Shown here one piece after another: positions 47,647 through 64,000 of a stretch of DNA of 64,000 nt; positions within the stretch are counted from its first letter, which is position 1; every line of letters begins with the position of its first letter. The notes below the pieces were generated by a model. It made no database searches, had not been told where the DNA came from, and saw only the letters and a program-made list of their open reading frames with translations. Source of the DNA: Bordetella genomosp. 12 (GTDB lineage Bacteria > Pseudomonadota > Gammaproteobacteria > Burkholderiales > Burkholderiaceae_B); assembly GCF_002261355.1 (NCBI RefSeq), contig NZ_NEVU01000002.1:310001-374000 (forward strand), read 5' to 3'. The position numbers and the translations under genes are program-made.

Positions 47647-47693
47647 CAGTATTCCGTGGTTGCAAGAAAGGTGGGATGCTCTCGGGGTGAGCA

Positions 47694-49565
47694 TCATGTG
47701 GGACGCGTTATTCTCCAGGCGCGCATCCTGCGGTGCAAGGTCGAACGCGAAATCCCCAGCGCCTGCGCCGTGGCGCTGACATTCCAATCGCTGCGAGTCA
47801 GCGCGGCAAGCACGGCTTCCGGGTTCGCGGGATCGGCGGGCGCGCAGGCGGCGTGCGGCACCGCAGTGTTGAGCGGCGCGGGCAGGCAGTCCAGCCCTAG
47901 CTCCTGGCCGTCACACAGCGCCAGGGCGTAACGCGCCACGTGCAGCAGCTCGCGGAAATTGCCGGGCCAATGATAGCGGCTCAGCGCCAGCCGCGCGGCG
48001 GCCGACAGGCTGGGCGCATCCATGCCGGCCTGGCCGGCGGCGCTGGTGATGGCCTGCGCTATCAATTCGTCCAGATCCGCGCGATCCCGCAGGGCACTGA
48101 GACTGAGCGCCGCTCCCTGGATGCGGAAATGCAGATCGGCGCGAAAGCGCTGCATTTGCACCATCTGCGCAATGTCTCTGAAGCTGGCTGCGATCAAACC
48201 GAAGTCCACCCGGACGGGTTCGGTCGCGCCCACTGGCACGAACTCTTTCTCCGACAACACCTGCAGAAAACGGCTTTGCAGCGCAAGCGGCATGTCGCCG
48301 ATCTCATCCAGGAACAAGGTGCCGCCGTCAGCCTGCAGCAAGCGCCCACGGGCGCCGTGCTTGGCTGCGCCGGTGAACGCGCCCGGCCGGTAGCCGAAGA
48401 GTTCGCTTTCTATCAGTTCGGCGGGAATCGCCGCGCAATTGATCGCCACAAATTGCCCGCCGCGGCGGGGGCCGGCATCGTGCAGGGCGCGCGCGAGCCG
48501 GGTCTTGCCCGTGCCGCTTTCGCCTTGCAGCAGGATGGGCAGGCCGCGCTCGTATAAACGGCGGGCGATGCGCAACTGTTCGCCCGTATGCGGATCCGAG
48601 CCGGCCAGGGCCTGCAGCGCGCGATCCTCCTGTGCGGCATCAGCCTGGCGAACACGCGCACGTGGCATGAGCGGGGCGGCGCGCACCGCGTGCGAGGAGG
48701 TCGAGGCGAGTTGGACATTGAGCGGCAGGCCCGTCAACGGCTCGATGACCGGACGCGGGCCGCGCAGCGACCGGATCAGGCCATCGACGTCATCCAGGCC
48801 ATGCAGCCGCTGCCCAAAGACCGCGCTGTCCGCGCCCAGCATCTGCAGCGCGGCCGGCGTCGCATCGAGGACGCGGCCGCTGTCATCCAGCGCGATCCGG
48901 CCTTCGCCAGCCGGGTCGCAGAAATCCTGCGTCGGCGACAGTCGCAGCACCAGGCGGCCTGCGCAGCGCAGATCGAAACTGCGATTCTCGATGCGCCGCG
49001 CCGAGCTTTCCACCACTTTGCGTGCGATCTCGTGCACCGTGCGGTTCGAGGGCTTGAGGGAGGTGACATTCAGAACGGCCGCCAGTTCGCCGCGATGGCC
49101 GAAGATCGGAGCCACGGTGCAGGACAGGCCGGTCAGCCGTTGGGCGAAGTGTTCTTCCATCACCACCGACACGGGCGACAGCGTCTGGATGCACAAACCG
49201 ATGCCATTGGTGCCCTGCGACGATTCGTTGAAACGCGCGCCGGGCTGGATGAGGGCGGCACGGCACAATGCATCGAGCTGGCTGTCGGCGCGCACCACCA
49301 TCAGGGTGCCGTCCGGATTGGCAAGCATGAGCAAATGCACGTGATCGCCCAACTGCCGCAACATGCGGTCCAGCTCTCCCTGCGCCAGCGTGGCCAGTTC
49401 TTCGGCCGGCGCGCGCACCACGCCGAACTCGGCCTGTGTCAGCACATCCGGCTCGGGTACGCGGTCCGGCTCCAGCCCATGGCTGTCATAGCATCGCTGC
49501 CAGGAATCGCGGATGAGAGGGTCGGGCTGGGCGGGTCGGCCCAGCAGTTGGACATGGGCGCTCAT
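47694..49565 (-). CDS. Sigma-54-dependent activator, AcoR-like
   Basis: This 623-residue enhancer-binding protein has an N-terminal GAF-type sensor (about residues 60-200, [18 protein letters not shown]). The AAA+ domain has Walker A GESGTGKT at 348-355, the sigma-54-contact loop GAFTGA at 395-400 and Walker [10 protein letters not shown] at 416-424. A Fis-type HTH lies at about 585-620 ([20 protein letters not shown]). It resembles AcoR-type regulators of acetoin and alcohol metabolism. Its likely target is the divergently placed -24/-12 promoter of the monooxygenase operon. Confidence 0.92.
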
Positions 49566-49625
49566 GAGACGCTCCGCGTAAGGTTGTCCAGCTCAGTATA
49601 GAAAGAATGGCTCCCCGATGAAAAC

Positions 49626-49651
49626 CGGGGGTCCTCGCCGCAGGACCCCCG
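49626..49651 (-). terminator. Terminator after the monooxygenase operon
   Basis: A 10-bp stem pairs CGGGGGTCCT (49626-49635) with AGGACCCCCG (49642-49651). On the minus strand it is followed by GGTTTTC. It lies 8 bp after the LLM gene stop and separates that operon from the activator gene. Confidence 0.75.
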
Positions 49652-49658
49652 CGAGGCA

Positions 49659-50750
49659 CTAGCTACCCTGGCGCACGGCGGGCATGACCTCGGAGGCCAG
49701 GCGCGACATGGTTTCCCATTCCCAGGCGCGGTTGGGGCCCGAACCGTCCATCGAGGCCATCAGCAGACCATTGAAGGGCCCCACGTTGGCGCGGAATGCG
49801 AGCAGCTTCTCGGCCACGGTCTTGGGCGAACCATAGATGACCATGCTCTCCATGAGGCTTTCGACCGTGACACTGTCATCGGCTTGTTTGGGGTCCGACT
49901 TCATGACCGCGGTGTAATTGGCCGACTTCAGCACGCGCCACAGATAGTCGAAGTAGTAATAGTTGCTGCCCTGGGGATTCATTACGCGGTCACGGGCTTC
50001 CGCGTCGCTAGGGGCAATCAGGATATTGCGCGAGACTCGCCAGTCCAGACCCGTGGGCTTTCTGCCCGCCGCCTCGCAGCCTTCCTGATACTTCTGCCAA
50101 TGGCTCTTGACCACATACTCGGGGCAGAAATTGGCGCTCATGGGGCCGAAGCCGCGCATGGCGGCGGTCTTGACGCTGCCTGAGTACGGCGACATCGCCG
50201 TCATCGTGATTTCCGGATGCGGCCGCTGATAGGGTTTGGGCAGATAGCCCACCCCGAGCTCCGGGATCACCATTTCTTTGAGCGACAACTGCCAGTGTTT
50301 GCCCTGGATGTCATAGGGCGGATCCTGGCTCCACAGCTTGAGAATGGTGTCGATGGACTCCATCATCCGCTCGTTGCGATACTCACCATCAAGCACCTGG
50401 AACAGCTCCATGTCACTGGCCAGCCCGCCGGGGCCGATGCCGAAGATCAGGCGCCCCCGGCTCAAATGGTCGAACTGCGCCACCTCGGCGGCGACCACCG
50501 CGGGATGATGATTGGGCAGGGCGATGACGCCCGTACCGAGCTTGATCTGCTTGGTGCGGTGGATCAGCGAAGCCAGAAACATCAGCGGCGAAGAAATGGG
50601 TTCGGTCGTGCACGACATGTGCTCGCCCACCCAGAACTCATCAAAACCCAACTGGTCGGCGTAAATCACCTTGTCGGCATCCTCCTCCAGCGTCTCGGCC
50701 ATGGGCCTGGCGGCCGGATGCAAAGGCATGGCGAACATCCCTAGTTTCAT
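49659..50750 (-). CDS. LLM-class flavin-dependent monooxygenase
   Basis: This 363-residue luciferase-like monooxygenase has the fold signatures EFWVGEHMSCTTEPISSP, GTGVIALPNHHPAVVAAEVAQFDHLSRGRLIFGIGPGG and MESMVIYGSPKTVAEKLLAF. It is similar to limonene-type monooxygenases. It uses reduced flavin from the adjacent flavin reductase gene. AGGAGA precedes the ATG. The substrate is unknown; sigma-54 control and a neighbouring aldehyde dehydrogenase hint at use of an unusual carbon source. Confidence 0.9.
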   Translation of the reverse strand: MKLGMFAMPLHPAARPMAETLEEDADKVIYADQLGFDEFWVGEHMSCTTEPISSPLMFLASLIHRTKQIKLGTGVIALPNHHPAVVAAEVAQFDHLSRGRLIFGIGPGGLASDMELFQVLDGEYRNERMMESIDTILKLWSQDPPYDIQGKHWQLSLKEMVIPELGVGYLPKPYQRPHPEITMTAMSPYSGSVKTAAMRGFGPMSANFCPEYVVKSHWQKYQEGCEAAGRKPTGLDWRVSRNILIAPSDAEARDRVMNPQGSNYYYFDYLWRVLKSANYTAVMKSDPKQADDSVTVESLMESMVIYGSPKTVAEKLLAFRANVGPFNGLLMASMDGSGPNRAWEWETMSRLASEVMPAVRQGS

Positions 50751-50807
50751 GAGTTTGTCTCCTGGTTGTATCGTGCTGCGTTGGCGGCCGCAGGGCGGCC
50801 TGGGAAA

Positions 50808-51323
50808 TCAAAGGGGTTGCGGTGCCAGGCAGGCGCTGCGCCCACCCAGCCAGACCAGTGGCGCATGGGCGGCGGCGTCCTGCTCGGGCAGAATGACCTC
50901 GTGGACGCGCACGATGAACAGCGTGTGCGTCCCGTAGGGCACGGCCTGGTCGACAGCGCCGAACACCACCGCGCGGGCGTGGGGCAGCCAGGGCAGGCGT
51001 GCCGCCTCGGGGGCCGTGTCCTGCCAGTCGTGCGACATAAAACGCTGGGCCCTGAGCTCGGAGCGCGAAAACGGCAGCAGCAAATGTTCTTGCTGCTGTG
51101 CCAGAAAATTGATGCACAGCTTGCCGCTGGCCTGCACCACCGGATGCAGCCCCGCCGTGCGATTGACCGACAGCAGCATCGAAGGAGGCTCCACCGACAC
51201 CGAGATCACCGCCGACGCCGCCATCCCGTGCGGGCGCCCCTCTTCATCGCGGCTGGTCACCAGCGCGACCGTGGACGGAACATTGCGCATGGCCTCCTTC
51301 AGGCCAGGGGGTCGCTGATTCAT
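50808..51323 (-). CDS. Flavin reductase of a two-component monooxygenase
   Basis: This 171-residue FMN-binding split-barrel protein (flavin_reductase-like) has VPSTVALVTSRDEEGRPHGMAASAVISVSVEPPSMLLSVNRT, a family-defining segment. It supplies reduced flavin to the LLM monooxygenase 57 bp downstream. The ATG has GGAG upstream (GGAGACAGCA). It is the first gene after the sigma-54 promoter. Confidence 0.9.
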   Translation of the reverse strand: MNQRPPGLKEAMRNVPSTVALVTSRDEEGRPHGMAASAVISVSVEPPSMLLSVNRTAGLHPVVQASGKLCINFLAQQQEHLLLPFSRSELRAQRFMSHDWQDTAPEAARLPWLPHARAVVFGAVDQAVPYGTHTLFIVRVHEVILPEQDAAAHAPLVWLGGRSACLAPQPL

Positions 51324-51377
51324 TGCTGTCTCCGACTGTTGTCATGTCTGCCTTTGCGGCAGCTATGCGGAGAGATA

Positions 51378-51396
51378 ATGCAAGAACCATGCCAAG
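51378..51396 (-). promoter_or_regulatory. Sigma-54 (-24/-12) promoter of the monooxygenase operon
   Basis: On the minus strand the sequence is TTGGCATGGTTCTTGCAT. The invariant GG (51393-51392) and GC (51381-51380) are separated by exactly 10 nt. This matches the RpoN consensus TTGGCACG-N4-TTGCA almost perfectly. The expected start is near 51369, about 45 nt upstream of the flavin reductase ATG. Confidence 0.87.
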
Positions 51397-51436
51397 TGCC
51401 TCGCCCCACGTGGAAGCCGCGCCGCGTGGCGCGCGG

Positions 51437-51454
51437 ACTGTGTCATGACACAGT
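51437..51454. promoter_or_regulatory. Perfect 18-bp palindrome, probable activator binding site
   Basis: ACTGTGTCATGACACAGT is a perfect dyad centred about 77 bp upstream of the predicted start. This is a typical distance for an enhancer site of a sigma-54 activator. The adjacent AcoR-like regulator is the likely ligand. Confidence 0.65.
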
Positions 51455-51468
51455 GGGCGCGGGGAGGG

Positions 51469-51487
51469 AGTGTGTCAGTGCGACACT
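51469..51487. promoter_or_regulatory. Second, imperfect activator-site dyad
   Basis: AGTGT (51469-51473) and ACACT (51483-51487) form an imperfect 19-bp palindrome. It shares the TGTGTCA half-site and a GACAC arm with the perfect palindrome 32 bp away. It lies about -110 from the predicted start. Paired sites of this kind support cooperative binding. Confidence 0.5.
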
Positions 51488-51711
51488 GATGAGCCGCTGG
51501 CTGAACCGCCAACCGCTCTTGCCGCGGCAGGGGGGGCACCCGCCCCGGGCGAGCTGGCGGCGTCGGCTCCCGTGCCGCAGCGGGCCGCCACGTCGAGGGC
51601 GTGGTCTGACGGTCCTTCTTACCTGCGTATAGGTGTCAACGCCGGTTGAAAATTGACCCACTTTCGTCGGAATCGTCGGAGTAAAACTGACCCACCCCGG
51701 CGTTCAAAAAC

Positions 51712-53516
<1,805 letters not shown>

Positions 53517-53603
53517 TGCCCAGGTGGGTCAGATTTATTCCGACGCGGTGGGTCAGTATTACATCGGCGCTGACATATAGGCTCGCGTGAATCGCGTACG
53601 GCC

Positions 53604-53641
53604 AAAAAAACTCCAACCTGTGGCGTTAGGGAAAAGTTGGA
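53604..53641 (-). terminator. Putative terminator of the Zorya operon
   Basis: On the minus strand TCCAAC and GTTGGA (53641-53636 and 53617-53612) form a 6-bp stem with an 18-nt loop, followed by G and T7 (53610-53604). It lies 178 bp after the zorD stop. The stem is short, so confidence is moderate. Confidence 0.5.
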
Positions 53642-53818
53642 ATCAAATGAGCCGCAAGTTGTCATAATTGTCTGGCAGTGCATTGTTTCCGACTTCGTCA
53701 AGAAATGCCCCCTTGCGAGAATAGCTTCATCGCAAAACGTGCAAATGCCAGTTGCGACCCTCAGCCGGAGTCGCCTAGGCCAACCTCTGACCCAGGTCTC
53801 CTCCAATGTTCGAGCCGC

Positions 53819-56800
53819 TTAGTGAGTTTCCACGAGAAAGACGTTCTGCAGCACATCGTCGAACTCATGGTTCGTAATGGGGTGAGCACCGAGGAGTTCC
53901 TCCAGCCGCGGCCGCATGACGAGTTCTACTTGGTTTGCCTGGGCTTGCTCCAGGGCGCCGCGGGTGAAGGTTTGGTTGGTCACCGCGACTTTGCGAAAGC
54001 GAGTGCCTTGGAATCGAGCTTGATATCGCGCAGCACCAGCCACAACCTCTTTGACCGCATCCCAGTCGAGCTTCGCGGCTTTAGAGCTCTTGCACTGAAG
54101 AAGTTCACCGTCGCGACCTTTCACCGCTACGATATCGATGCCGCCGTCCCCGTTGCGCTTGGGCGTCACCGTTGCATCGAAACCGAGCTTTCGCCACAAC
54201 AAGCAGCAGAAGGCCTCGAAGGCGTCCCCGTCCATCCGGTCCACGTCGCCCATGGTGAGGTTTCGCTTCGGCAACGATTCTGCCGCATTGGTATCTCCGA
54301 CGAACTCAGAGAAGCTCGCGTCTTTCCCGGCTCCATTTAACATGGCAGTCAGCCCACCATCATCCAAGGTTGTGCCTGACAAACCCGCCTTGCGCTTCAG
54401 CAACTCATCCAGCCGAACTTCGAAGGTCGCAAAATCATCAGCCACTACAGTTGGACAGTAGACGAAAACGTCTCGTTCCTGGCCGATACGGAAGGCGCGG
54501 TCGGTCGCCTGCGATTCTTTTGAAGGATTCCAGGCACGGGTGAAGTGAATGACATGGTTGGCAGCGGTGACATTAAGGCCCGCGCCAGCGGCCAAGGTGG
54601 ACAAGATGATGACGTCGAATCCTTGCTTGGCGGAAAACCGGTCAAGGTAGCGCTGCCTTCCCTGCGTGTCGCCGTTAATGATGTCCGGGCGAATATCAAA
54701 CGTTTCCCTGAGACAATAGTACAAAGCGGCCTGAACCTCACGAAGCTCTGTGAATACTATTGCCTTCTCGCCTGCCGCCTTTACGTCTGTTAGGCGTTGA
54801 AGGAGCCATCCGAGCTTTGGTGAGTTTGCAATATGCGTTTTAAGTCCGGACTCGTCGACGAGGAACTTACTACCAGGCAGGCAGTAGGGCTCCGCGCATA
54901 TAGCCCTCATCAGATGCAATGCGCCGAAGGACAGTCGCGCCCGTTTTTTCCCGTTCGACTCATCTGTCGCGTCTTGGAGCTTCTTCAAGCCCCCCTTGTA
55001 GAGGATGCGCTGGTGTTCTGTGAGCGTAATCTCCAATCGGTCTTCATCGGCCAAGGAAGATTTGAACGCCAGCTCGGCTTGGTTTGCTTTTTTGTGAGCA
55101 AAGTATTTTTTGGGAAGGTCAGCCGCGATGTCGGCCTTCGTCCGGCGGAGCGTTTGCGGGCGAATCGCGGCCTGGAGCCGATTCAGAGCCGAAACCTGCT
55201 CGTCGGTCTCGCACTCGATAGGTCTACGGTAAGTCTTGCCGAATTCCTCCAGCGCGCCAAGCAAGCCCGGCTGCACCATGTCGAACAGGCACCAAAGGTC
55301 GGCCAGAGAATTCTCTACCGGCGTACCAGTGCACGCGATGCGGAAGTCGGCCTTCAACTTCTTGGTCGCCAACGTCACTAACGTGCCAGGAGTCTTTATC
55401 CGCTGCGCTTCATCGCAGATGAGGAACGCGAACCGCTGCTTGGCTAACGAGAATTCATACGAGGTCAGAACCTCGTAGGTCGTGATGATAATCTTTGCCG
55501 TCCCAATCCATCCGGGTTTGAACAGGTCGACGATGTTCTTGTCCCGAAGTTGACCGTCGATAAGGCTCAGCGGTTGCTTGCGTGTCTTTAACTCGTCGCC
55601 ATACAGTACAAGTACTTCAGGAAATGAGTCAGTGAAGAACTTGTGGGCTTCGTTGGCCCAGTTTTCCAAGAGGCTCTTCGGCGCGAGGATAATAGAAGGG
55701 GCAGCATTCGGATTGGTTTCGTAGTAGCAACCGAGTACCGATAGCAATTGCAATGTCTTGCCAAGGCCCATATCGTCGGCCAGCAGTGCGCCGCGGCACT
55801 CCGAGGGAGCCTTAGAAACTAAATGCTGGAACCAGGCGACTCCATAGAGCTGATGTTTCTTCAGCGAGACGCCCGCACGTAAACACCGGGGAAGCTGCGC
55901 CTGCCAGTCTTCGGGCAGGGCGAGCGACTCTCGGCGTTCCTCAAGGTAGTCCACTCCATGAAAGTTTGTCTTCACTAACAAAGTTTGACGCGGCGCTTTC
56001 GGTTCTCTTGACTTAGCTTCTCCGTCTCCTTTAATCCGTTCCGGCGCTTGAACCATACTCTTGAAGGTTTCGACCAGCGTGCGGGCCTGCGTGGTGGCTA
56101 TTGCAGTCGGAAGACTCTCGTTTTTCACCTCGCTGATACCCTTTGATTCTGCATCGGCGACCTGCTTGTCGAAGTCCTGGACCCACTGCTGGGTTAGCGG
56201 GACGAGCACCTGTTCCTCGTTACCCTGCAGCGTAACTTTGACCATTGGAGTCAAGTCGGACGGCAGCCACCCTTTTTCCTCCTCCCCTTCCTGCTTGTCT
56301 CGCTGAAAGACCGGCACATAAATGGGTTTGACCGAGCCAATTCCTTCGATGCGCCCACTGTAGCCGTCAAGCTCGTAGACGTCTTCGAAGTTGATGCGCT
56401 CCGCTGGCTGCGTTTGCCAGAGATGTGCCAGCTGCAGTCCCTGTTCCAGCTGCCCCGTGGACTCTGCATCGACAGTTAGATCGAATTCTTCCCAAGGGAA
56501 CCGTTCACGGTCTTGTTCCAGTGCTTCTTTTAATGCCGCTAAGAACGTTTCAAGTCCTTCAGGTGTTCTGAGATCCTTGGTTTCTGTTCTGGCGGTCCCG
56601 TCCCCAAAGTGCTCGGTAATGAGCAGGTCAACAGTATTGAGACGACCGTTCGTGGTTCTGCCCACGATACTAAAAACGGCGGCAACCGCGCCAGCCTCTG
56701 CCCGGTCAAGCAGGAACTCGTCTTCCTTGATGACTTCGTGTGCCGCATCACCGAGGAATGCGAATGGGTTATGGATGAACTTTTCGGCCTTCGCTCCCGC

Positions 56801-57682
56801 GACACGGCGCCCTGGCATCTCGCGTTTAATGACGGAGAGAACTTTATGTACTGGCTCCGAGATAACCACGCGGACTCGCCCAGCGCCACGGGTCAAGTCA
56901 TAGTGCGGTTGAACCGAATTGAATCCATCGAAGGCAGTTAGCCATCCGTCCGGAGCACCTTCGAAAGAAGGGAAGACGGTTTGAACGCGCCCAAAGGGCG
57001 TATCCTCGTTCGATGTTGGTAGGCGCAGACAGTCCGGTGTGAGAACGAACGTCGTCTCTAGATAGGTGCTTGCATAGAGGGCTCCAGCACGGTCAGCAAC
57101 GCGTCGAATACGGCCCCAGGCTAGCTCTTGCGCCTGCTGTGTTTTCTCACTGTCGGAGCGTGCCCGGAAGGCTTCCACTTCCGAGATAGTTGCCCATGCT
57201 GCGCCAGACAGGAGTTGATACTTACCACCCACTGTGGCTACCGCGCCTTCCAATTGGTCCAAGCGCACCTGTTGACTTCCGTCTGTCCATCCGGCTATAG
57301 AGACCTCGAAGTCGCTGCCCGACACAGTTCCAGAGCCATCGAGGATGGGGCGAAGGGGGCCTTGCGGCGGGAGATTAAGAAGCTGTAGCGCGCCAACGTG
57401 CTCGGCAGAACCCAGAAGCTCATAGATATCGACCCAAGGTATGGTCGCGCTTTTGCTATCGAGAACGCAGCGATTCTCTCCTGCAAGCTGTGCAAGGTAA
57501 GCTCCCAGAACCGAGTCTTCAGGCCCGGCCCGGTGGATGACCTCCAACAGCCCATCGGCGGACACGTCGACCAGCTCGTGGGAGAACTCCACACGCACGC
57601 CTTCGCGAGTCCAGGTTGTTTTGAGAGCTGGCCCACCGTTCCTGCCATTCGTGGCCCGTTTGAAGATGTCGAGGAATCCCAT
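53819..57682 (-). CDS. zorD: ZorD: SNF2 helicase with Mrr-like nuclease domain (type I Zorya)
   Basis: This 1287-residue effector has an N-terminal region of about 590 residues that I cannot assign. An SNF2/SWI2 helicase follows: Walker A ADDMGLGKT ending at residue 643, DEAQ box (CDEAQRIK) at 757-760, and motif VI QATDRAFRIGQ. A C-terminal Mrr-type restriction nuclease fold covers about 1150-1268, with E in DAFEAF, D in GDGGIDI and QCK. The ATG at 57682 is preferred because GGAGA is 5-6 nt upstream and it overlaps the zorC stop (TGATG). In Zorya the motor complex is thought to release this DNA translocase-nuclease on infecting DNA. Confidence 0.9.
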   Translation of the reverse strand: MGFLDIFKRATNGRNGGPALKTTWTREGVRVEFSHELVDVSADGLLEVIHRAGPEDSVLGAYLAQLAGENRCVLDSKSATIPWVDIYELLGSAEHVGALQLLNLPPQGPLRPILDGSGTVSGSDFEVSIAGWTDGSQQVRLDQLEGAVATVGGKYQLLSGAAWATISEVEAFRARSDSEKTQQAQELAWGRIRRVADRAGALYASTYLETTFVLTPDCLRLPTSNEDTPFGRVQTVFPSFEGAPDGWLTAFDGFNSVQPHYDLTRGAGRVRVVISEPVHKVLSVIKREMPGRRVAGAKAEKFIHNPFAFLGDAAHEVIKEDEFLLDRAEAGAVAAVFSIVGRTTNGRLNTVDLLITEHFGDGTARTETKDLRTPEGLETFLAALKEALEQDRERFPWEEFDLTVDAESTGQLEQGLQLAHLWQTQPAERINFEDVYELDGYSGRIEGIGSVKPIYVPVFQRDKQEGEEEKGWLPSDLTPMVKVTLQGNEEQVLVPLTQQWVQDFDKQVADAESKGISEVKNESLPTAIATTQARTLVETFKSMVQAPERIKGDGEAKSREPKAPRQTLLVKTNFHGVDYLEERRESLALPEDWQAQLPRCLRAGVSLKKHQLYGVAWFQHLVSKAPSECRGALLADDMGLGKTLQLLSVLGCYYETNPNAAPSIILAPKSLLENWANEAHKFFTDSFPEVLVLYGDELKTRKQPLSLIDGQLRDKNIVDLFKPGWIGTAKIIITTYEVLTSYEFSLAKQRFAFLICDEAQRIKTPGTLVTLATKKLKADFRIACTGTPVENSLADLWCLFDMVQPGLLGALEEFGKTYRRPIECETDEQVSALNRLQAAIRPQTLRRTKADIAADLPKKYFAHKKANQAELAFKSSLADEDRLEITLTEHQRILYKGGLKKLQDATDESNGKKRARLSFGALHLMRAICAEPYCLPGSKFLVDESGLKTHIANSPKLGWLLQRLTDVKAAGEKAIVFTELREVQAALYYCLRETFDIRPDIINGDTQGRQRYLDRFSAKQGFDVIILSTLAAGAGLNVTAANHVIHFTRAWNPSKESQATDRAFRIGQERDVFVYCPTVVADDFATFEVRLDELLKRKAGLSGTTLDDGGLTAMLNGAGKDASFSEFVGDTNAAESLPKRNLTMGDVDRMDGDAFEAFCCLLWRKLGFDATVTPKRNGDGGIDIVAVKGRDGELLQCKSSKAAKLDWDAVKEVVAGAARYQARFQGTRFRKVAVTNQTFTRGALEQAQANQVELVMRPRLEELLGAHPITNHEFDDVLQNVFLVETH

Positions 57683-59409
57683 CAGTTCTCCGGGTAGTAC
57701 CATGCCAACCGCGACTTAGCCCACTTGAAGCCAAGCGCCTTAAGTTCAGTTTCTAGTAACCCGCTGTGGTTTCGGTCCTCTACCCACAATCGGCCCCCCT
57801 TGGCTTCGCGACGATCGTCGATATGAGCGCCGGGAAAACGACGTACCAGGGCATTCAGGGAGGCCATATTGGGTCCATTGGCCGGCGTGGAGGTCCGACT
57901 GCCCGAGCTCGTTGAGCCGCTAGTTCGCGTCGACGCTGCGGCGCCCACGCTTGGTGGGAAGGGGGGAGGTTGACGAGGAGGCCGTTCGTCAGGCCAGATG
58001 CCGAGCTGCTGTAGCTCAGTCTCCGCTCGATCGTCCCAGCCGTCTCGATGGACAATGCGCAGAGCACACCCGACCTCTGGCCGGAAGCCCGCCGCTAAGT
58101 CAATGGTGCCGCCGTCGTAGTGTCCGGCGAGCCGTTCGAACGGCAGTCGGTCAGCTTGGTAGACGTAGCATGCGTTCGGCTTCTTACTGAACTCGATGAT
58201 GAGGTAACTGCCGATTTGCATGATGAAGGCATCCACCTCAGCCTTGCCACTCAACTTGGCGTATGCTCCCTCCTCGCGGGCGATGAGGTCGCGGATACCA
58301 GCATTTGTGCATTTCAGCGCCATGGTGTCGGAACCAAAGACCAAACGTGTCCATTGAATCTGATTAAGGTACTTAGACCAGAATGCTAAACGGCCTTCGT
58401 CGGCACTATTCCGAGCCGCCAGGATGTCGAAGAAATCCTTTAGGTTGCGCTTGTTGACCCAGTTAAGCACCATGCGCCATACAGGGTCTGGCACGCGATT
58501 CCAAGCAGGGGCAATGCCGGCAACCTTGAGTTTGGGATTTTTCCAAACCGTCGGATGACAAACGAAGTCGCTAAGATGTTCGTTCGGTGGTGTGCTTTTG
58601 CAGGCGTGATACCGGATGAGAATGGCCTCTAGCGCCTCGTCGCGGAATGCTGGTTTACTGGCGATGAGTTTGATGAGCTGCGGGACAAGCCTCTGGAATT
58701 CTGCGTCGCCAGTCGCTAATGCACATTTGACCGCACCGAGGACTAGAGTGTGCCAGAACCAGCTTGACGGTGGGATTCCGAGGTCTGCAGCGAGGCGCTC
58801 GGTTGGTTCAGTTTCTCCGCGCAGGTATGCACTGGCATATTTTTCTACCGGTTCGGTCGTGAGTACTTGAGCTTCTTTTCGCAGTACATGGACCCAGTCG
58901 GGAACCAGGTTCTCCCCGGCTTGACGGTTAATCAGAGGCCAGGTGCGCTCAAGAAAGGCTCGCAGGGATTCCCATCCGGTTCGCGTTAGCTCGTCGTTGC
59001 CAGCTTCGACGTTGAAGTTGAAGTACGAGTACAGCAACCCGTGCCAGGTCAGTCGCCACAGGTCGCCGTGCTCAGCCTCGGCTTCGTATGAGGCAAGTAG
59101 CGTCGGGAAACGCTTCGTTCCGAGCATCATCGCACCTGATTGCTCGTGGATTGGGACTGCCACGGCGCAAGCGACCAAGTCCCTTTGCCACGCATCTAAT
59201 GGCTGACCGCGAATGAATGCGCGGGCGGCGGCGTAGGCATCTTCCTTCCTAGGCCGGGCTTTGGCGTAGCCTTGGAAAAGCTGTTCGGCGTCGCGGGCGC
59301 GGTTCTCAATAAGGGCCGGTTGCCCGAACTCCCCGGTGAGTAAGCCCATGGCCACGATGGACGACGTTAGGTCTTCCCCCAATTTTTGAAGTGCAGATAC
59401 CGCTAGCAC
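57682..59409 (-). CDS. zorC: ZorC: EH-signature type protein (type I Zorya)
   Basis: This 575-residue soluble protein is at the position and has the length and pattern of ZorC, whose core is called EH_Signature (conserved Glu and His). Candidate residues lie in ADEGRLAFWSKYL (about residue 336-348), LIIEFSKKPNACYVY (403-417) and RLAGHYDGG (about 430). A Pro/Ser/Thr-rich linker (about 476-510) leads to a small C-terminal module ending LKALGFKWAKSRLAWYYPEN. The GTG start at 59409 overlaps the zorB stop by 7 bp. ZorC is proposed to bind DNA and act with ZorD. Confidence 0.82.
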   Translation of the reverse strand: MLAVSALQKLGEDLTSSIVAMGLLTGEFGQPALIENRARDAEQLFQGYAKARPRKEDAYAAARAFIRGQPLDAWQRDLVACAVAVPIHEQSGAMMLGTKRFPTLLASYEAEAEHGDLWRLTWHGLLYSYFNFNVEAGNDELTRTGWESLRAFLERTWPLINRQAGENLVPDWVHVLRKEAQVLTTEPVEKYASAYLRGETEPTERLAADLGIPPSSWFWHTLVLGAVKCALATGDAEFQRLVPQLIKLIASKPAFRDEALEAILIRYHACKSTPPNEHLSDFVCHPTVWKNPKLKVAGIAPAWNRVPDPVWRMVLNWVNKRNLKDFFDILAARNSADEGRLAFWSKYLNQIQWTRLVFGSDTMALKCTNAGIRDLIAREEGAYAKLSGKAEVDAFIMQIGSYLIIEFSKKPNACYVYQADRLPFERLAGHYDGGTIDLAAGFRPEVGCALRIVHRDGWDDRAETELQQLGIWPDERPPRQPPPFPPSVGAAASTRTSGSTSSGSRTSTPANGPNMASLNALVRRFPGAHIDDRREAKGGRLWVEDRNHSGLLETELKALGFKWAKSRLAWYYPEN

Positions 59410-60107
59410 CGGCCGAACTCCTTCCCTTTGAGAACATCGCTGGTTTCGGGAATTTCTTCATCCAAGCCCCAAAAATCGATCTTTAACTCTACGCGACGGC
59501 TTTCTGCTTTATCCTTCTTGATGGAGTTGAAGGAGTAGCCACCCACTAAAAATAACTCCTGGACTTTGCGCAGTTGTCCCGAAGTCAACGCGTCAGCCGG
59601 TCCGTTACTCTGGAACAAAGAGCAGACAACGCTGCGACTGCGGTCCAGGCTAAGCTGCAAGTTGTAGAGATAAGTGCCGTCTTCATCCGTGAATCCTTCG
59701 ACGACGACGCTTCGAATCCATCTGTGCCCGTCGGGCGACTCTTTTGCGCGTAGTAGCACGGGTACATAGTTTCGAAGGAACTGCCCGGCCGTGTTGCTGA
59801 TGGTGTAGCTGCCGCTTTCAAATCGAACTTCCTTTCCTAGATCGATTCGAAAGTTTTTCTGGTCAATGCCTACGCCAGCGCTTTTGGGGTCTGTGGCAAT
59901 CATGCGCATCACCCGTTCGATTGCGTCGCTTCGTTCTCTTGAGGCTCTTGTGGCAGCATCGATGCTTTGCGTGACGGAGACCAGCGTTACCGCCATCACG
60001 ACCAAGAACAGCACCATCAGCGCCGACATCAGGTCCGAGAAGGAAATCCAGAACGGACTTTCCCCCTCGTGTTTGGCTCCTCGCTTGAGGACGAGTCGTG
60101 AAAGCAC
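59403..60107 (-). CDS. zorB: ZorB: MotB-like stator protein with OmpA domain
   Basis: This 234-residue inner-membrane protein has one transmembrane helix (residues about 24-46), carrying the conserved ion-binding D25 in FSDLMSALMVLFLVVM. A periplasmic OmpA/MotB-like peptidoglycan-binding domain follows (VVEGFTDEDGTYLYNLQLSLDRSRSV). With ZorA it forms a proton- or ion-driven motor in the envelope. The start is GTG, with AGAGGG upstream inside zorA; the gap to zorA is 1 bp. Confidence 0.92.
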   Translation of the reverse strand: MLSRLVLKRGAKHEGESPFWISFSDLMSALMVLFLVVMAVTLVSVTQSIDAATRASRERSDAIERVMRMIATDPKSAGVGIDQKNFRIDLGKEVRFESGSYTISNTAGQFLRNYVPVLLRAKESPDGHRWIRSVVVEGFTDEDGTYLYNLQLSLDRSRSVVCSLFQSNGPADALTSGQLRKVQELFLVGGYSFNSIKKDKAESRRVELKIDFWGLDEEIPETSDVLKGKEFGRC

Positions 60108-60108
60108 G

Positions 60109-62118
60109 TCAGGCCCTCTTCATGCGCTGAACGGCATTGGCTAGCTCCTGCACCACCCCGTTGAGATGGCCGGTCCCTTGAGCAAGATGGCGGTCGGTCT
60201 CGGCGATGGTCGACTTGACCTGGCTCACCAGAGAGTTGCCGAAGTCGCTGAACGCTTTCACCAGTGCATCGTTTACGTGGTCCAGGTGTGAGCGCGCCTC
60301 TGCCTCCGACTGACGCATGGCTTCGGCACTGGCTTTGATGCTGTTGACCAGCTCTTGCGATACTCCTGCTTCCTTCTTGACTGACTCGATAAGTCCCATG
60401 AGCGCGGCTACTTGGGTGTCTACCGTGCGACGCGTGGAGTCGTACTGTTCGAACCCACGCTGAACTGCCGTCGAGGCTGCTTGCAATGAGGCGGCAGTCG
60501 TTGCCAACGTGTCCGTGACCTTTGTCGAACGTTCGAAAGTGCCGGTCACGGCGTTTCCCGCAGTTTCGAATCGCTGGGCTGCTGAACCCATGGCCAAAGC
60601 CCCCTGATTCATACCATCGATGGCCCTTAGTGATACCTCACCGAGTGCGTCAATGTTCTGCTGCGTTTTCATGACTTGACTGGAGACGGCATCTAGCACG
60701 GACTCTACCTGCGTTGCTAGTCCACCAACGAGTTGGTTCGTCTGAGTAGCCAAGCGGTCATTGCGACTCGATTCCTCTAGCGCTGATGTCTTGCGAACCT
60801 TCTCCATTCCGTCCATGGCGGTAGCAACTTCGCTGAGGACCTTCATCACCGCTTCGTCCATAGCCTGCTTGGACTTGTCTTGTTCTTCGGTGACCAGGCG
60901 CCGGAAGTCTTGAACAAAGTCGCGCATTTGGTCGGTGAGCAATTGTTGGTTGTCGGCCGCCTTCTTCATGGCATCTTCAAGTGTCCCGCTCATCTGGGAA
61001 GCAGCTTGTTCGTTGGTGTGCTTGATGTCGGTTAGAAGTCCTTGCAAAGACGACTGCACTGCTGCCATCGACTCCATTGATTTCTGCATCTGTTCATTGA
61101 TGCCGCGCATCTGGCCGCCAAAGGTGTCCTCCAGTTTCGCCATAAAGCCAGTGAGCAAGGTTTCAAGCATTGAGTTCACCTGCTCGCCATTGCCTCGCGC
61201 CGTGACCTCCATGGCATCGCTCACGCGCTTCATCGGCTCGGCGATGGCCTGCGAGATGGAGTCTCCGATGTGAGTTCCCAAGGCCAGGGAGGAAGCCTCT
61301 TGCGCAGCAATCTGACGTTCAACCAAGTTGGTCATCATCTTGTGGAGGTCTTCCACAAGAGCGTCTTTTAATTGAGCGGTACTCGCAGCATTCTGCTCGG
61401 AGGACCTGACTAGCCGTTCCAGATAGTCCTCACCAGCTCCGGTCGCATAGAGGCTGTCGATAGCGTGGGTCAGGTGTTCGACGAGGCGATACAGGCGCGC
61501 TACGATGAAACGGCTAAAGAGGACCACCACCATGGCGCAAAAAATCGCTGCGCCGGAGGCTAAAAAAGCATGTTGCACGCCTTCCAGAAGTGGGCCAAGT
61601 CCATTGACTGTGTTCTGAATTTTCTCGGGGTCGACTTTGAACTTCTCTAAGCCATCGAGTAGGCCGGCGAATGTTCCAATAATGCCCAGCCCGGTCAAGA
61701 CGCCCGGCAAGTGCCGAGTGAATTCTTCGAAGAGGCGTCCGTCGACTAAGACCTCTTTGGTAAACATTGACTCGGCCGGGACCGTGGCACGGACTTCCGT
61801 GAGGGAGGTGGCTCCTGAACCTGCCTTGCGGAACTCGTGCAATGTATGGGAGTACTCTCCCCAGAGGTGTTTCAGCGGCTTCCAGTGAAACGCACGGCCA
61901 ACCTCATCGGGGGCTGGTGCCATGCCCGCTTTGCGTGCTTTCCTCAACGCTTTAAGGATAGATCGAATCTGCCACGACACTCGTGTGCCCTGGATGACAT
62001 ACCCCACGAGGAACACCAGCGTCAGGGCAGCAACAAACAGAAAAACAACGAGCGGAAGTCCATGCAGTTTCTCCAGAGATGGATGAACTGAGCCCAGCAA
62101 CTTTGATACCTCGTACAC
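60109..62118 (-). CDS. zorA: ZorA: MotA/TolQ/ExbB-like motor protein with long tail
   Basis: The 669-residue product has three transmembrane segments (about residues 21-43, 138-157 and 181-208 from this start). The MotA-type core is TGLGIIGTFAGLLDGLE and the third helix is ASGAAIFCAMVVVLFSRF. Then comes a helical tail of about 450 residues without membrane segments, as in Zorya ZorA, where it projects into the cytoplasm. I choose GTG 62118 because GGAGG (62127-62131) lies 8 nt upstream; the ATG at 62187 adds 23 charged residues but has no ribosome site. Confidence 0.92.
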   Translation of the reverse strand: MYEVSKLLGSVHPSLEKLHGLPLVVFLFVAALTLVFLVGYVIQGTRVSWQIRSILKALRKARKAGMAPAPDEVGRAFHWKPLKHLWGEYSHTLHEFRKAGSGATSLTEVRATVPAESMFTKEVLVDGRLFEEFTRHLPGVLTGLGIIGTFAGLLDGLEKFKVDPEKIQNTVNGLGPLLEGVQHAFLASGAAIFCAMVVVLFSRFIVARLYRLVEHLTHAIDSLYATGAGEDYLERLVRSSEQNAASTAQLKDALVEDLHKMMTNLVERQIAAQEASSLALGTHIGDSISQAIAEPMKRVSDAMEVTARGNGEQVNSMLETLLTGFMAKLEDTFGGQMRGINEQMQKSMESMAAVQSSLQGLLTDIKHTNEQAASQMSGTLEDAMKKAADNQQLLTDQMRDFVQDFRRLVTEEQDKSKQAMDEAVMKVLSEVATAMDGMEKVRKTSALEESSRNDRLATQTNQLVGGLATQVESVLDAVSSQVMKTQQNIDALGEVSLRAIDGMNQGALAMGSAAQRFETAGNAVTGTFERSTKVTDTLATTAASLQAASTAVQRGFEQYDSTRRTVDTQVAALMGLIESVKKEAGVSQELVNSIKASAEAMRQSEAEARSHLDHVNDALVKAFSDFGNSLVSQVKSTIAETDRHLAQGTGHLNGVVQELANAVQRMKRA

Positions 62119-62187
62119 TTCTTCGTCCTCCCGCTTTGCTCTCGTATTCGGCGAGGCAGCAGTCTTTTCGTTGATGCCAAGACGCAT

Positions 62188-62850
62188 GTAGACGGTTTAT
62201 GCCGAGCATCAGGCAGTGATGATGCCTTGCCACTCCCCAGGGGCATCCGGCCTCAGGCGACGCTTTGTCATGTGGGCACCTTGGTGGATAAATCCGAGAC
62301 CGTCCGTTTGCGTATATCTATATATTTCGTCACGCAACAATATTGTACGTTAAGGTGGCTACCCGCCAAGTTTGCGATTTAAATAACTACCTGATTCGCA
62401 GGATATAATTGACGAAGCTGAGGTCAAGCTGAGTTGTCTGGGAACGAAATTTAATGCGCGCATAAATAAATTTGCGCTGAAAGAAGTTACACCACTTGGT
62501 GGCTGGATAAATAAAGCGTATTGGTCTGCGGCAGACAAGGGGTGCGACGAAAGGTTATGGAATGAACGGGCAGTGGGGCGTGATGGTAACCCTCCTTAAT
62601 TTTAGTGATTGGCAGAAATAGCAGGACCACGCGTCCACGGCTAACTGCTGTCTGGGGATAAATCTGCCTAGGACCATATTGGGGCCCCCGTAATCGTTGG
62701 GCCACACATCTGCAGTGTGACGACGCGCTGTACGTGGTTCAGATCTTTCCAACGATATTGGGATAGCCTTTCTTAGCACATGGTTCTGTTGAACCTCTCG
62801 ACGTAAAGACGTCACCGCCTTCGTAGCGGTGCAATTCAGGAGCTATTGTA
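62188..62850. other. Intergenic region upstream of zorA (663 bp)
   Basis: This region is AT-rich between 62300 and 62530 and probably holds the zorA promoter. It carries no tRNA-like or phage attachment motif I can recognise. A start-less frame of 70 codons (62387-62599) may be a gene remnant. No direct repeat with the left island edge was found. Confidence 0.55.
62342..62369 (-). promoter_or_regulatory. Candidate sigma-70 promoter for zorA
   Basis: On the minus strand TTGGCG (62369-62364) is separated by 16 nt from TACAAT (62347-62342). These match the -35 consensus at 4 of 6 and -10 at 5 of 6. The expected transcript leader would be about 215 nt. Other AT-rich motifs nearby (TATATA at about 62310-62325) are alternatives. 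Confidence 0.38.
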
Positions 62851-62897: not shown

Positions 62898-63212
62898 ATG
62901 AGCATGAAGATGGAAGACGATATCAAGCGATGGACAGCCAAACGCAAGAGCGCATTGGTGCTGGAGATCATTCAAGGCAAGACCACGGTCTCCGAGGCGA
63001 GCCGGCAATACGACCTGGCGCCCTCCGAGGTCGAGCAATGGGTCGATGACGCCAAGCGAGGCATGGAGAACGCGCTTCGTGCGAACCCGCTGGATATCAA
63101 AGAGCAGTACGAACGCCAGCTCAAGGATCTGCAAGAGGCCTATGGCGAGGCGATGCTGGAGCTGCGTGCGAGAAAAAAGCTGCAAGCCCTGTTGGACGAG
63201 GAAGGGAAATGA
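62898..63212 (+). CDS. IS3-family transposase OrfA
   Basis: This 104-residue DNA-binding protein has an HTH (KSALVLEIIQGKTTVSEASRQYDLAPSEVEQWV) and a coiled coil (KEQYERQLKDLQEAYGEAMLELRARKKL). GAGGAA precedes the ATG. It overlaps orfB by 4 bp (ATGA). Confidence 0.9.
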   Translation: MSMKMEDDIKRWTAKRKSALVLEIIQGKTTVSEASRQYDLAPSEVEQWVDDAKRGMENALRANPLDIKEQYERQLKDLQEAYGEAMLELRARKKLQALLDEEGK

Positions 63213-64000
63213 TCCTTCGCGTGCAGCAGGGCTTGGCCGATGATGGCTTTGATGTTCCGCTGACTAAGCTGTGCCGTTGGTTCGGTGTGCCCAGGCGCAC
63301 GGTGTACTACCGGTCGGTCAAATCACCCGCCAAGATCGATCCCAAGTATGCCGAGCCGATCAAGGCCTTGATCGAAGAGTCACCGTCGTTTGGCTATCGC
63401 ACGGTGGCCTATCTGTTGGGGTTCAACAAGAACACGGTGCAGCGCATCTTCCAGCTTAAGGGTTGGCAGGTTCGCAAGAGGCCGATTGGCTTCAGGCCCC
63501 GGATTCAAGCGCTGCCGTCGGTGGCCTCCCTGCCAAACGAACGCTGGTCGACGGATATGTGTCGGGTCTGGGCCGGCCGTGATGGCTGGGCGACCTTGGC
63601 ACTGGTGATTGACTGCCATACCCGGGAACTGCTGGGCTGGCATCTGTCGCGCAGTGGCAAGGCCTGCACGGCTGGCAGCGCGCTGGAGCATGCGCTGATT
63701 GCCCGGTTCGGCACCTTAGGTCGTGTTCCCGAACCGTTTCTGCTTCGGTCAGACAACGGCTTGGTTTTCTGCAGCCGCAGCTACACAGCATTGGTACGCA
63801 GTTATGGACTACGCCAGGAGTTCATCACGCCGCATTGCCCACAGCAAAACGGCATGGTTGAACGTGTCATCCGAACACTTAAAGAACAGTGCGTGCACCG
63901 GCACCGCTTCGAAACCCTACAGCACGCCAGCCGCGCAATCGGCGACTGGATCAGCTTTTATAACCATCGACGCCCACATCAGGCGCTGAAGATGATGACT
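63209..64000 (+). CDS. IS3-family transposase OrfB (partial)
   Basis: The open frame covers the first 264 codons. It carries the DDE core: D in RWSTDMCRVWAG, D in LRSDNGLVFC and E in NGMVERVIRTLKEQC. The last residues before the edge (FYNHRRPHQALKMM) belong to the usual C-terminal end, so only a few codons are missing. The ATG overlaps the orfA stop. Confidence 0.92.
   Translation, partial: MILRVQQGLADDGFDVPLTKLCRWFGVPRRTVYYRSVKSPAKIDPKYAEPIKALIEESPSFGYRTVAYLLGFNKNTVQRIFQLKGWQVRKRPIGFRPRIQALPSVASLPNERWSTDMCRVWAGRDGWATLALVIDCHTRELLGWHLSRSGKACTAGSALEHALIARFGTLGRVPEPFLLRSDNGLVFCSRSYTALVRSYGLRQEFITPHCPQQNGMVERVIRTLKEQCVHRHRFETLQHASRAIGDWISFYNHRRPHQALKMMT

Follow-up and report, generated by a model that had tools for sequence, protein, structure and literature searches.

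A complete type I Zorya operon of foreign appearance, with an Mrr-bearing ZorD, in Bordetella genomosp. 12

What is the block of four minus-strand genes near the right-hand end of a 64,000-nucleotide stretch of Bordetella genomosp. 12 DNA (contig NZ_NEVU01000002.1, positions 310,001 to 374,000; hereafter the window, in whose numbering coordinates are given), and how did it come to lie there? A preliminary description made from the sequence had called it a complete, mobile-looking type I Zorya anti-phage operon. We have compared the genes with protein profiles, solved structures, related loci and the genomes of relatives. It is very probable that they constitute a complete type I Zorya, horizontally acquired into the variable stretch that borders ssrA on its 3′ side, and working as a motor-driven defence that degrades phage DNA. 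Taken as a system it is complete and unexceptional for type I; it is notable as a foreign copy in its genus and for the Mrr domain of its ZorD.

Gene content and assignment to type I

The operon comprises four intact, neighbouring open reading frames (ORFs) on one strand, in the order zorA-zorB-zorC-zorD (53819-62118), just as they had been described.

60109..62118, minus strand: zorA, a MotA/TolQ/ExbB-like inner-membrane motor subunit with a long helical tail; 669 amino acids, GTG start at 62118
59403..60107, minus strand: zorB, a protein with a MotB-like plug and an OmpA domain; 234 amino acids, D25 in the membrane segment
57682..59409, minus strand: zorC, an EH_Signature protein; 575 amino acids, E406 and H454 conserved
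53819..57682, minus strand: zorD, an SNF2-type ATPase with a C-terminal Mrr nuclease domain; 1287 amino acids
53891..54241, minus strand: Mrr_cat domain of ZorD (Pfam PF04471, 1.4e-16), holding E1156, D1179, D1183, Q1196 and K1198 (numbered on the 1287-residue ZorD and counted by hand)

The junctions, checked in the sequence, are also those reported earlier: a gap of one base between zorA and zorB, an overlap of seven bases between zorB and zorC, and TGATG between zorC and zorD. Two of the frames are open further upstream. That of zorD extends to 57703, giving 1294 amino acids, and that of zorA to its first ATG at 62187 (60109-62187). In five of the eight closest homologues (L002 and L004-L007) the zorA ORF starts, called mechanically, align with 62118, which is residue 24 of the long frame, and this is therefore the likelier start. 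The L003 frame is longer, and those of L008 and L073 begin elsewhere.

All four proteins match the PADLOC type I profiles over nearly the entire profile, with E-values of 3.4e-259 (ZorA1), 1e-95 (ZorB1), 2.5e-264 (ZorC1) and 0 (ZorD1). These are far beyond chance. The ZorC match takes in residues 1-575 of the 575-position profile, and that of ZorD runs from 5 to 1096 of 1101 profile positions and from 13 to 1139 of the 1294-residue protein, so that the Mrr end lies beyond the profile. The preliminary description had named the lack of a profile match for ZorC or ZorD as a result that would refute it, and both are matched here. Type II and III Zorya have the ZorA and ZorB motor in common with this operon, where ZorC and ZorD accompany it. 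The motor proteins themselves score very differently against the PADLOC profiles of the three types: ZorA gives 860 bits for type I against 47 and 22 for the best profiles of types II and III, and ZorB gives 318 bits against 73 and 36.

Individual domains agree with this assignment. ZorB contains OmpA (9.8e-9) and MotB_plug (4.6e-6), ZorC contains EH_Signature (3.1e-67), and ZorD contains SNF2 (1.1e-51), Helicase_C and the Mrr_cat domain listed above. ZorA has no Pfam match over a curated cut-off; it is identified by PADLOC and by solved ZorA structures. It matches PDB 8qyd in two stretches (7.4e-79), ZorB matches 8qyd_F (1.2e-50), ZorC matches 8r68 (2.8e-33) and ZorD matches 8qy7 (6.7e-187), residues 65-1109 of the 1294-residue frame aligning with the last. 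We take these three entries to be E. coli Zorya. The earlier domain assignments are thus upheld throughout, namely a MotA-like core with a long helical tail in ZorA, a membrane aspartate and OmpA domain in ZorB, the EH signature in ZorC, and SNF2 and Mrr-type domains in ZorD.

Seven positions of the E. coli proteins are essential: T147 and S184 of ZorA, D26 of ZorB, E400 and H443 of ZorC, and D730 and E731 of ZorD. Alignment with the E. coli plasmid proteins of locus L074 places the same residue at all seven equivalent positions of the window proteins, i.e. ZorA T149 and S188, ZorB D25 (within FWISFSDLM), ZorC E406 and H454, and ZorD D757 and E758. The ZorA pair is conserved in all 25 proteins compared and the ZorD pair in all 22. 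The ZorB aspartate is present in 25 of 26, with a gap in L089, and the ZorC glutamate and histidine in 26 of 27, the exception being a weak lone hit, L091. The order A-B-C-D with adjacent genes recurs in 20 of 26 related loci. The other six comprise one without ZorA near a contig end, four without a ZorD match and one weak lone hit. Gene content, order, completeness, domains and key residues are established by these comparisons, and the operon is a complete type I Zorya as had been proposed. Type I and II systems together numbered 7,742 in 2021, by the count given in the excerpted text of the PADLOC paper (PMC8565338).

Foreign composition and genomic setting

The closest type I Zorya loci lie in Cupriavidus plantarum (L002), a Rubrivivax metagenome-assembled genome (MAG; L003), Hyphomicrobiales UR115 (L004), Paralcaligenes ureilyticus (L005) and a Candidimonas MAG (L006). 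They resemble the window operon in gene order and protein lengths, their ZorD proteins carry Mrr, and the identities are 64-69% for ZorC and 73-78% for ZorD. In a tree of 22 ZorD proteins that of the window groups with these five (94/98, not starred), and with L007 added the group is starred (100/99). The likeness does not extend to the flanks: the two spacers (62119-62846 and 53576-53818), both bordering insertion sequence (IS) elements and 47660-51633 have no blastn match in L002-L007, nor do the spacers have one in the compared loci as a whole, loci from the window's own genome being left out.

The base composition of the operon differs from that of its surroundings. The guanine-plus-cytosine (GC) content of 53819-62187 is 56.2% (53.2% in zorB), against 64.4% over positions 1-51600. 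The lower GC noted in the preliminary description therefore stands, although its figure of 53-55% does not, and its contrast with the flanks was somewhat overstated. At third codon positions (GC3) the four zor genes have 0.63-0.65, about 0.15 below the 0.78-0.83 of ten ORFs in the left flank. Five ORFs of the right flank have GC3 of 0.85, 0.81, 0.75, 0.64 and 0.70; those at 0.64 and 0.70 are without a Pfam match and their frame is uncertain.

The distribution of ZorC is patchy. Among 15 genomes of the genus it occurs only in the window's own, with two of the genomes being 73% (G008) and 77% (G012) complete. It occurs in three of 101 genomes made up of the host and its relatives, and in 19 of 399 sampled from the order, counting the host and the weak L091 hit. 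When named genomes were scanned, with a reach confined to close relatives, seven loci emerged, in two Cupriavidus species, a Rubrivivax MAG, a Hyphomicrobiales bacterium, Paralcaligenes, a Candidimonas MAG and a Bacteroidetes MAG. Paralcaligenes ureilyticus, of the same family, is the nearest named kin of the host. The foreign composition and patchy distribution are established, and together with the scatter of the closest relatives found, over Cupriavidus, Rubrivivax, an alphaproteobacterium and others, they argue for horizontal transfer; from its sequence the operon looks acquired. An intact type I Zorya of foreign appearance is thereby recorded for a genus whose 14 other genomes examined are without ZorC.

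Is there evidence of the vehicle? The preliminary description had noted two IS elements bordering the operon, and both were located.

51634..53575, minus strand: IS21-type element; istB at 51712-52482, terminal inverted repeats, apparent 6-base target duplication TATAGG
62847..64058 (past the window end at 64000), plus strand: IS3-type element; orfA at 62898-63212, orfB from 63209, apparent target duplication CTAT

An element on each side of low-GC cargo is the arrangement expected if a composite transposon had moved the operon as a unit, and we considered this possibility. We regard it as very improbable. The two elements are of different families, and each is flanked by an apparent target duplication of its own. 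Because the ends were assigned by visual inspection, these duplications are probable and not proved, above all the 4-base CTAT, a match that on its own is weak. In the IS21-type element istA is broken into two ORFs (52986-53516 and 52479-52952), and this element is therefore probably inactive. Moreover, a second copy of the operon is not present in the genome. The difference in family, the separate duplications and the split istA point to two apparently independent IS insertions and not to a vehicle. The term mobile-looking is thus borne out as to horizontal origin, and not as to the IS pair as the means of movement. The IS21-type element has at least one match in the host genome, with 40 of 106 candidates scored, and the IS3-type element at least one further match, 72% identical, with 40 of 43 scored. 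The Bacteroidetes MAG contig (L008) begins with a piece of 118 bases (positions 2-119) that is 78% similar to the terminal part of the IS3-type element in the window. It is oriented oppositely relative to zorA, and is probably a coincidence.

A recent plasmid origin was also considered and rejected. The segment 53800-62850 has no megablast match in the plasmid collection. The ZorC protein matches 24 plasmid records, all below 60% identity, and only one of the matches covers at least 80% of the query. In 50,697 phage records ZorC found no match at E up to 1e-5. The Nitrosospira plasmid pNRS527-1 (L073; 80,750 bases, typed as non-mobilizable) carries a complete Mrr-bearing type I Zorya with a ZorC 54% identical to that of the window, which shows that plasmids also carry members of the clade.

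The ssrA gene, encoding transfer-messenger RNA, lies just outside the window at 64141-64530 (L015 2141-2530), with its 3′ end facing the operon. We compared its neighbourhood, roughly 18 kb in each case, in eight of the 14 other genomes of the genus. Both sides are syntenic in three (G001, G005 and G014), and in these the place of the roughly 16.5 kb at about 47660-64137 (from 47999 for G014) is taken by other DNA, 2.7, 3.9 and 5.2 kb long respectively. The DNA in G014 (L050) has transposase-like ORFs and a fragment resembling the window's IS3-type element. The remaining five have only the ssrA side in common within this distance. Since the DNA is different in each of the three, the genus has a variable site on the 3′ side of ssrA. 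Because ssrA borders the segment, integration there by a phage-type integrase was considered as a possible route. A 25-base pattern from the ssrA 3′ end has no second copy in the window, and a 20-base pattern, with up to three mismatches allowed, occurs once in the genome, a search that would miss a shorter repeat. Among the ORFs of the segment put to Pfam, some small ones being left unscanned, there is no phage-type integrase, only the integrase-core domains of IS elements. At 47694-51323 are genes for a sigma-54 activator, a luciferase-like monooxygenase and a flavin reductase. In the 14 other genomes of the genus nothing resembles the monooxygenase beyond partial matches at no more than 35% identity. 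The GC3 of these genes is native-like (0.80-0.83), so they need not have arrived with the operon.

The Mrr domain of ZorD

The window ZorD differs at the C-terminus from those of E. coli type (8qy7 and L074). The latter are 1080-1082 amino acids long and lack an Mrr domain; the match to 8qy7, of 1080 residues, ends at its residue 1058. Mrr_cat is present at the C-terminus of 15 of the 22 ZorD proteins compared. The Pfam domain was not found in ZorD of L074 or of six genomes of the same order, and was found in that of L080, scanned alongside them. Nor does a stand-alone Mrr ORF occur in the 26 loci, at a minimum ORF length of 60 amino acids and with some loci being short.

A tree of the 22 ZorD proteins was built from columns other than those of Mrr, and the presence of the domain was placed upon it. 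Four changes are required, all of them forced by starred branches. When the labels are shuffled the mean is 6.1 changes, and 15 of 500 shuffles require four or fewer. The trait is therefore somewhat clustered as well as patchy. Within the 15 fused domains E1156, D1179, D1183, Q1196 and K1198 are invariant, and we take these to be the Mrr catalytic residues. Conservation of this kind suggests that in the clade of the window the Mrr domain most likely makes the cut, at least in part.

The presence of the domain is not new, as an Mrr-like domain in ZorD is already mentioned in the excerpted text of PMC11890865. Its patchy distribution may be, since no statement of it was met in the excerpts of the literature used. 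The occurrence of ZorD both with and without Mrr raises the testable question of where in ZorD the DNA-cutting activity lies if Mrr is there. One tentative answer, to which we give rather less than even weight, is that Mrr is a swappable second effector: a fused nuclease fed by the SNF2 motor would make the cut, and ZorD of E. coli type would use some other activity. If so, type I Zorya would comprise two mechanistically different effectors behind a single ZorAB motor.

Proposed action and competing explanations

By homology, ZorA and ZorB would form a 5:2 proton-driven motor in the inner membrane. Perturbation of the envelope by a phage would cause ZorB to grip the peptidoglycan, and the tail of ZorA would then relay the signal to ZorC and ZorD. 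The last two would attach to phage DNA as it enters and break it down, the cuts most likely being made, in whole or in part, by the Mrr domain that is fused to the SNF2 motor at the end of ZorD. Support for the scheme is drawn from the excerpted texts of PMC12904381 and PMC11890865, the latter reporting 5:2 ZorAB complexes. The steps of motor action, sensing, recruitment and DNA degradation are assigned to the present operon by analogy with work on its homologues. We infer expression of this copy, protection by it and the role of Mrr as its cutter.

A number of observations count against a phage-degrading type I Zorya at work in this host. The NCBIfam type I equivalogs (NF041794, NF041788, NF041789 and NF041790) are matched by the four proteins, but all below cut-off, with 345 of 750 bits for ZorA1, 233 of 400 for ZorB1, 196 of 490 for ZorC and 870 of 1500 for ZorD. 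The broader ZorA model NF033916 is passed (349 bits, cut-off 250). This copy is thus filed as type I Zorya, and not as an equivalog by the NCBIfam models. The four proteins have the same order as in E. coli-type Zorya, but ZorA has 669 amino acids rather than 729, and identity to the L074 proteins is 27% for ZorA, 40% for ZorB, 25% for ZorC and 37% for ZorD. With a clade so divergent (25-40%), functional equivalence is something we infer. Two further points, the near-chance outcome of a promoter scan upstream of zorA and a published disagreement over the target, each bear on an alternative explanation.

The disagreement concerns what is cut. The same operon might protect the population by nicking the chromosome of the infected cell, and not by selective degradation of phage DNA. 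Single-strand breaks were seen in host DNA on overexpression of Zorya I or of ZorCD (PMC11890865), and in the Fig. 7 model of that paper the recruited nuclease acts mainly on bacterial chromosomes; population-wide immunity by host damage is favoured in its excerpted text, and the papers differ on the target. The sequence is neutral between the two. We consider degradation of phage DNA more likely here, and host nicking unlikely. A doubt of another kind is whether the genes do anything in this host, as they could be complete yet silent cargo that is not expressed or not protective. There are IS elements on both sides, and a scan for promoters upstream of zorA gave a result near chance (two found, 1.2 expected). 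Against this, the four frames are intact and of full length with their key residues conserved, and 728 IS-free bases remain upstream of zorA (62119-62846). We think it quite improbable that the operon is silent. It is extremely improbable that it is a ZorABC-like signalling system with no role in defence. Such a function is brought to mind by some genomes of the order (L087, L089 and L090), where ZorA-ZorB-ZorC without a detected ZorD have a gene for a Ser/Thr kinase or an FHA-cyclase as neighbour, but in the window ZorD is adjacent and of full length, has both motor and nuclease domains, and its start overlaps the stop of zorC. A type I Zorya degrading phage DNA is accordingly the reading that we retain.

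Homologues of ZorA, ZorB and ZorC lie at 7916-15086 of L087, 5075-12042 of L089 and 7673-12561 of L090, with no ZorD match in the stretch of 17-18 kb. The Ser/Thr protein kinase is found in L087 and L089, and the FHA-cyclase gene in L089 and L090. L089 and L090 lie near genes that by eye are apparently housekeeping (primase, ribosomal protein). L088 has ZorABC too, and its contig ends right after ZorC. In L087, L089 and L090 a Zorya-like motor may serve a different purpose, or these loci may form a subtype that has a different effector.

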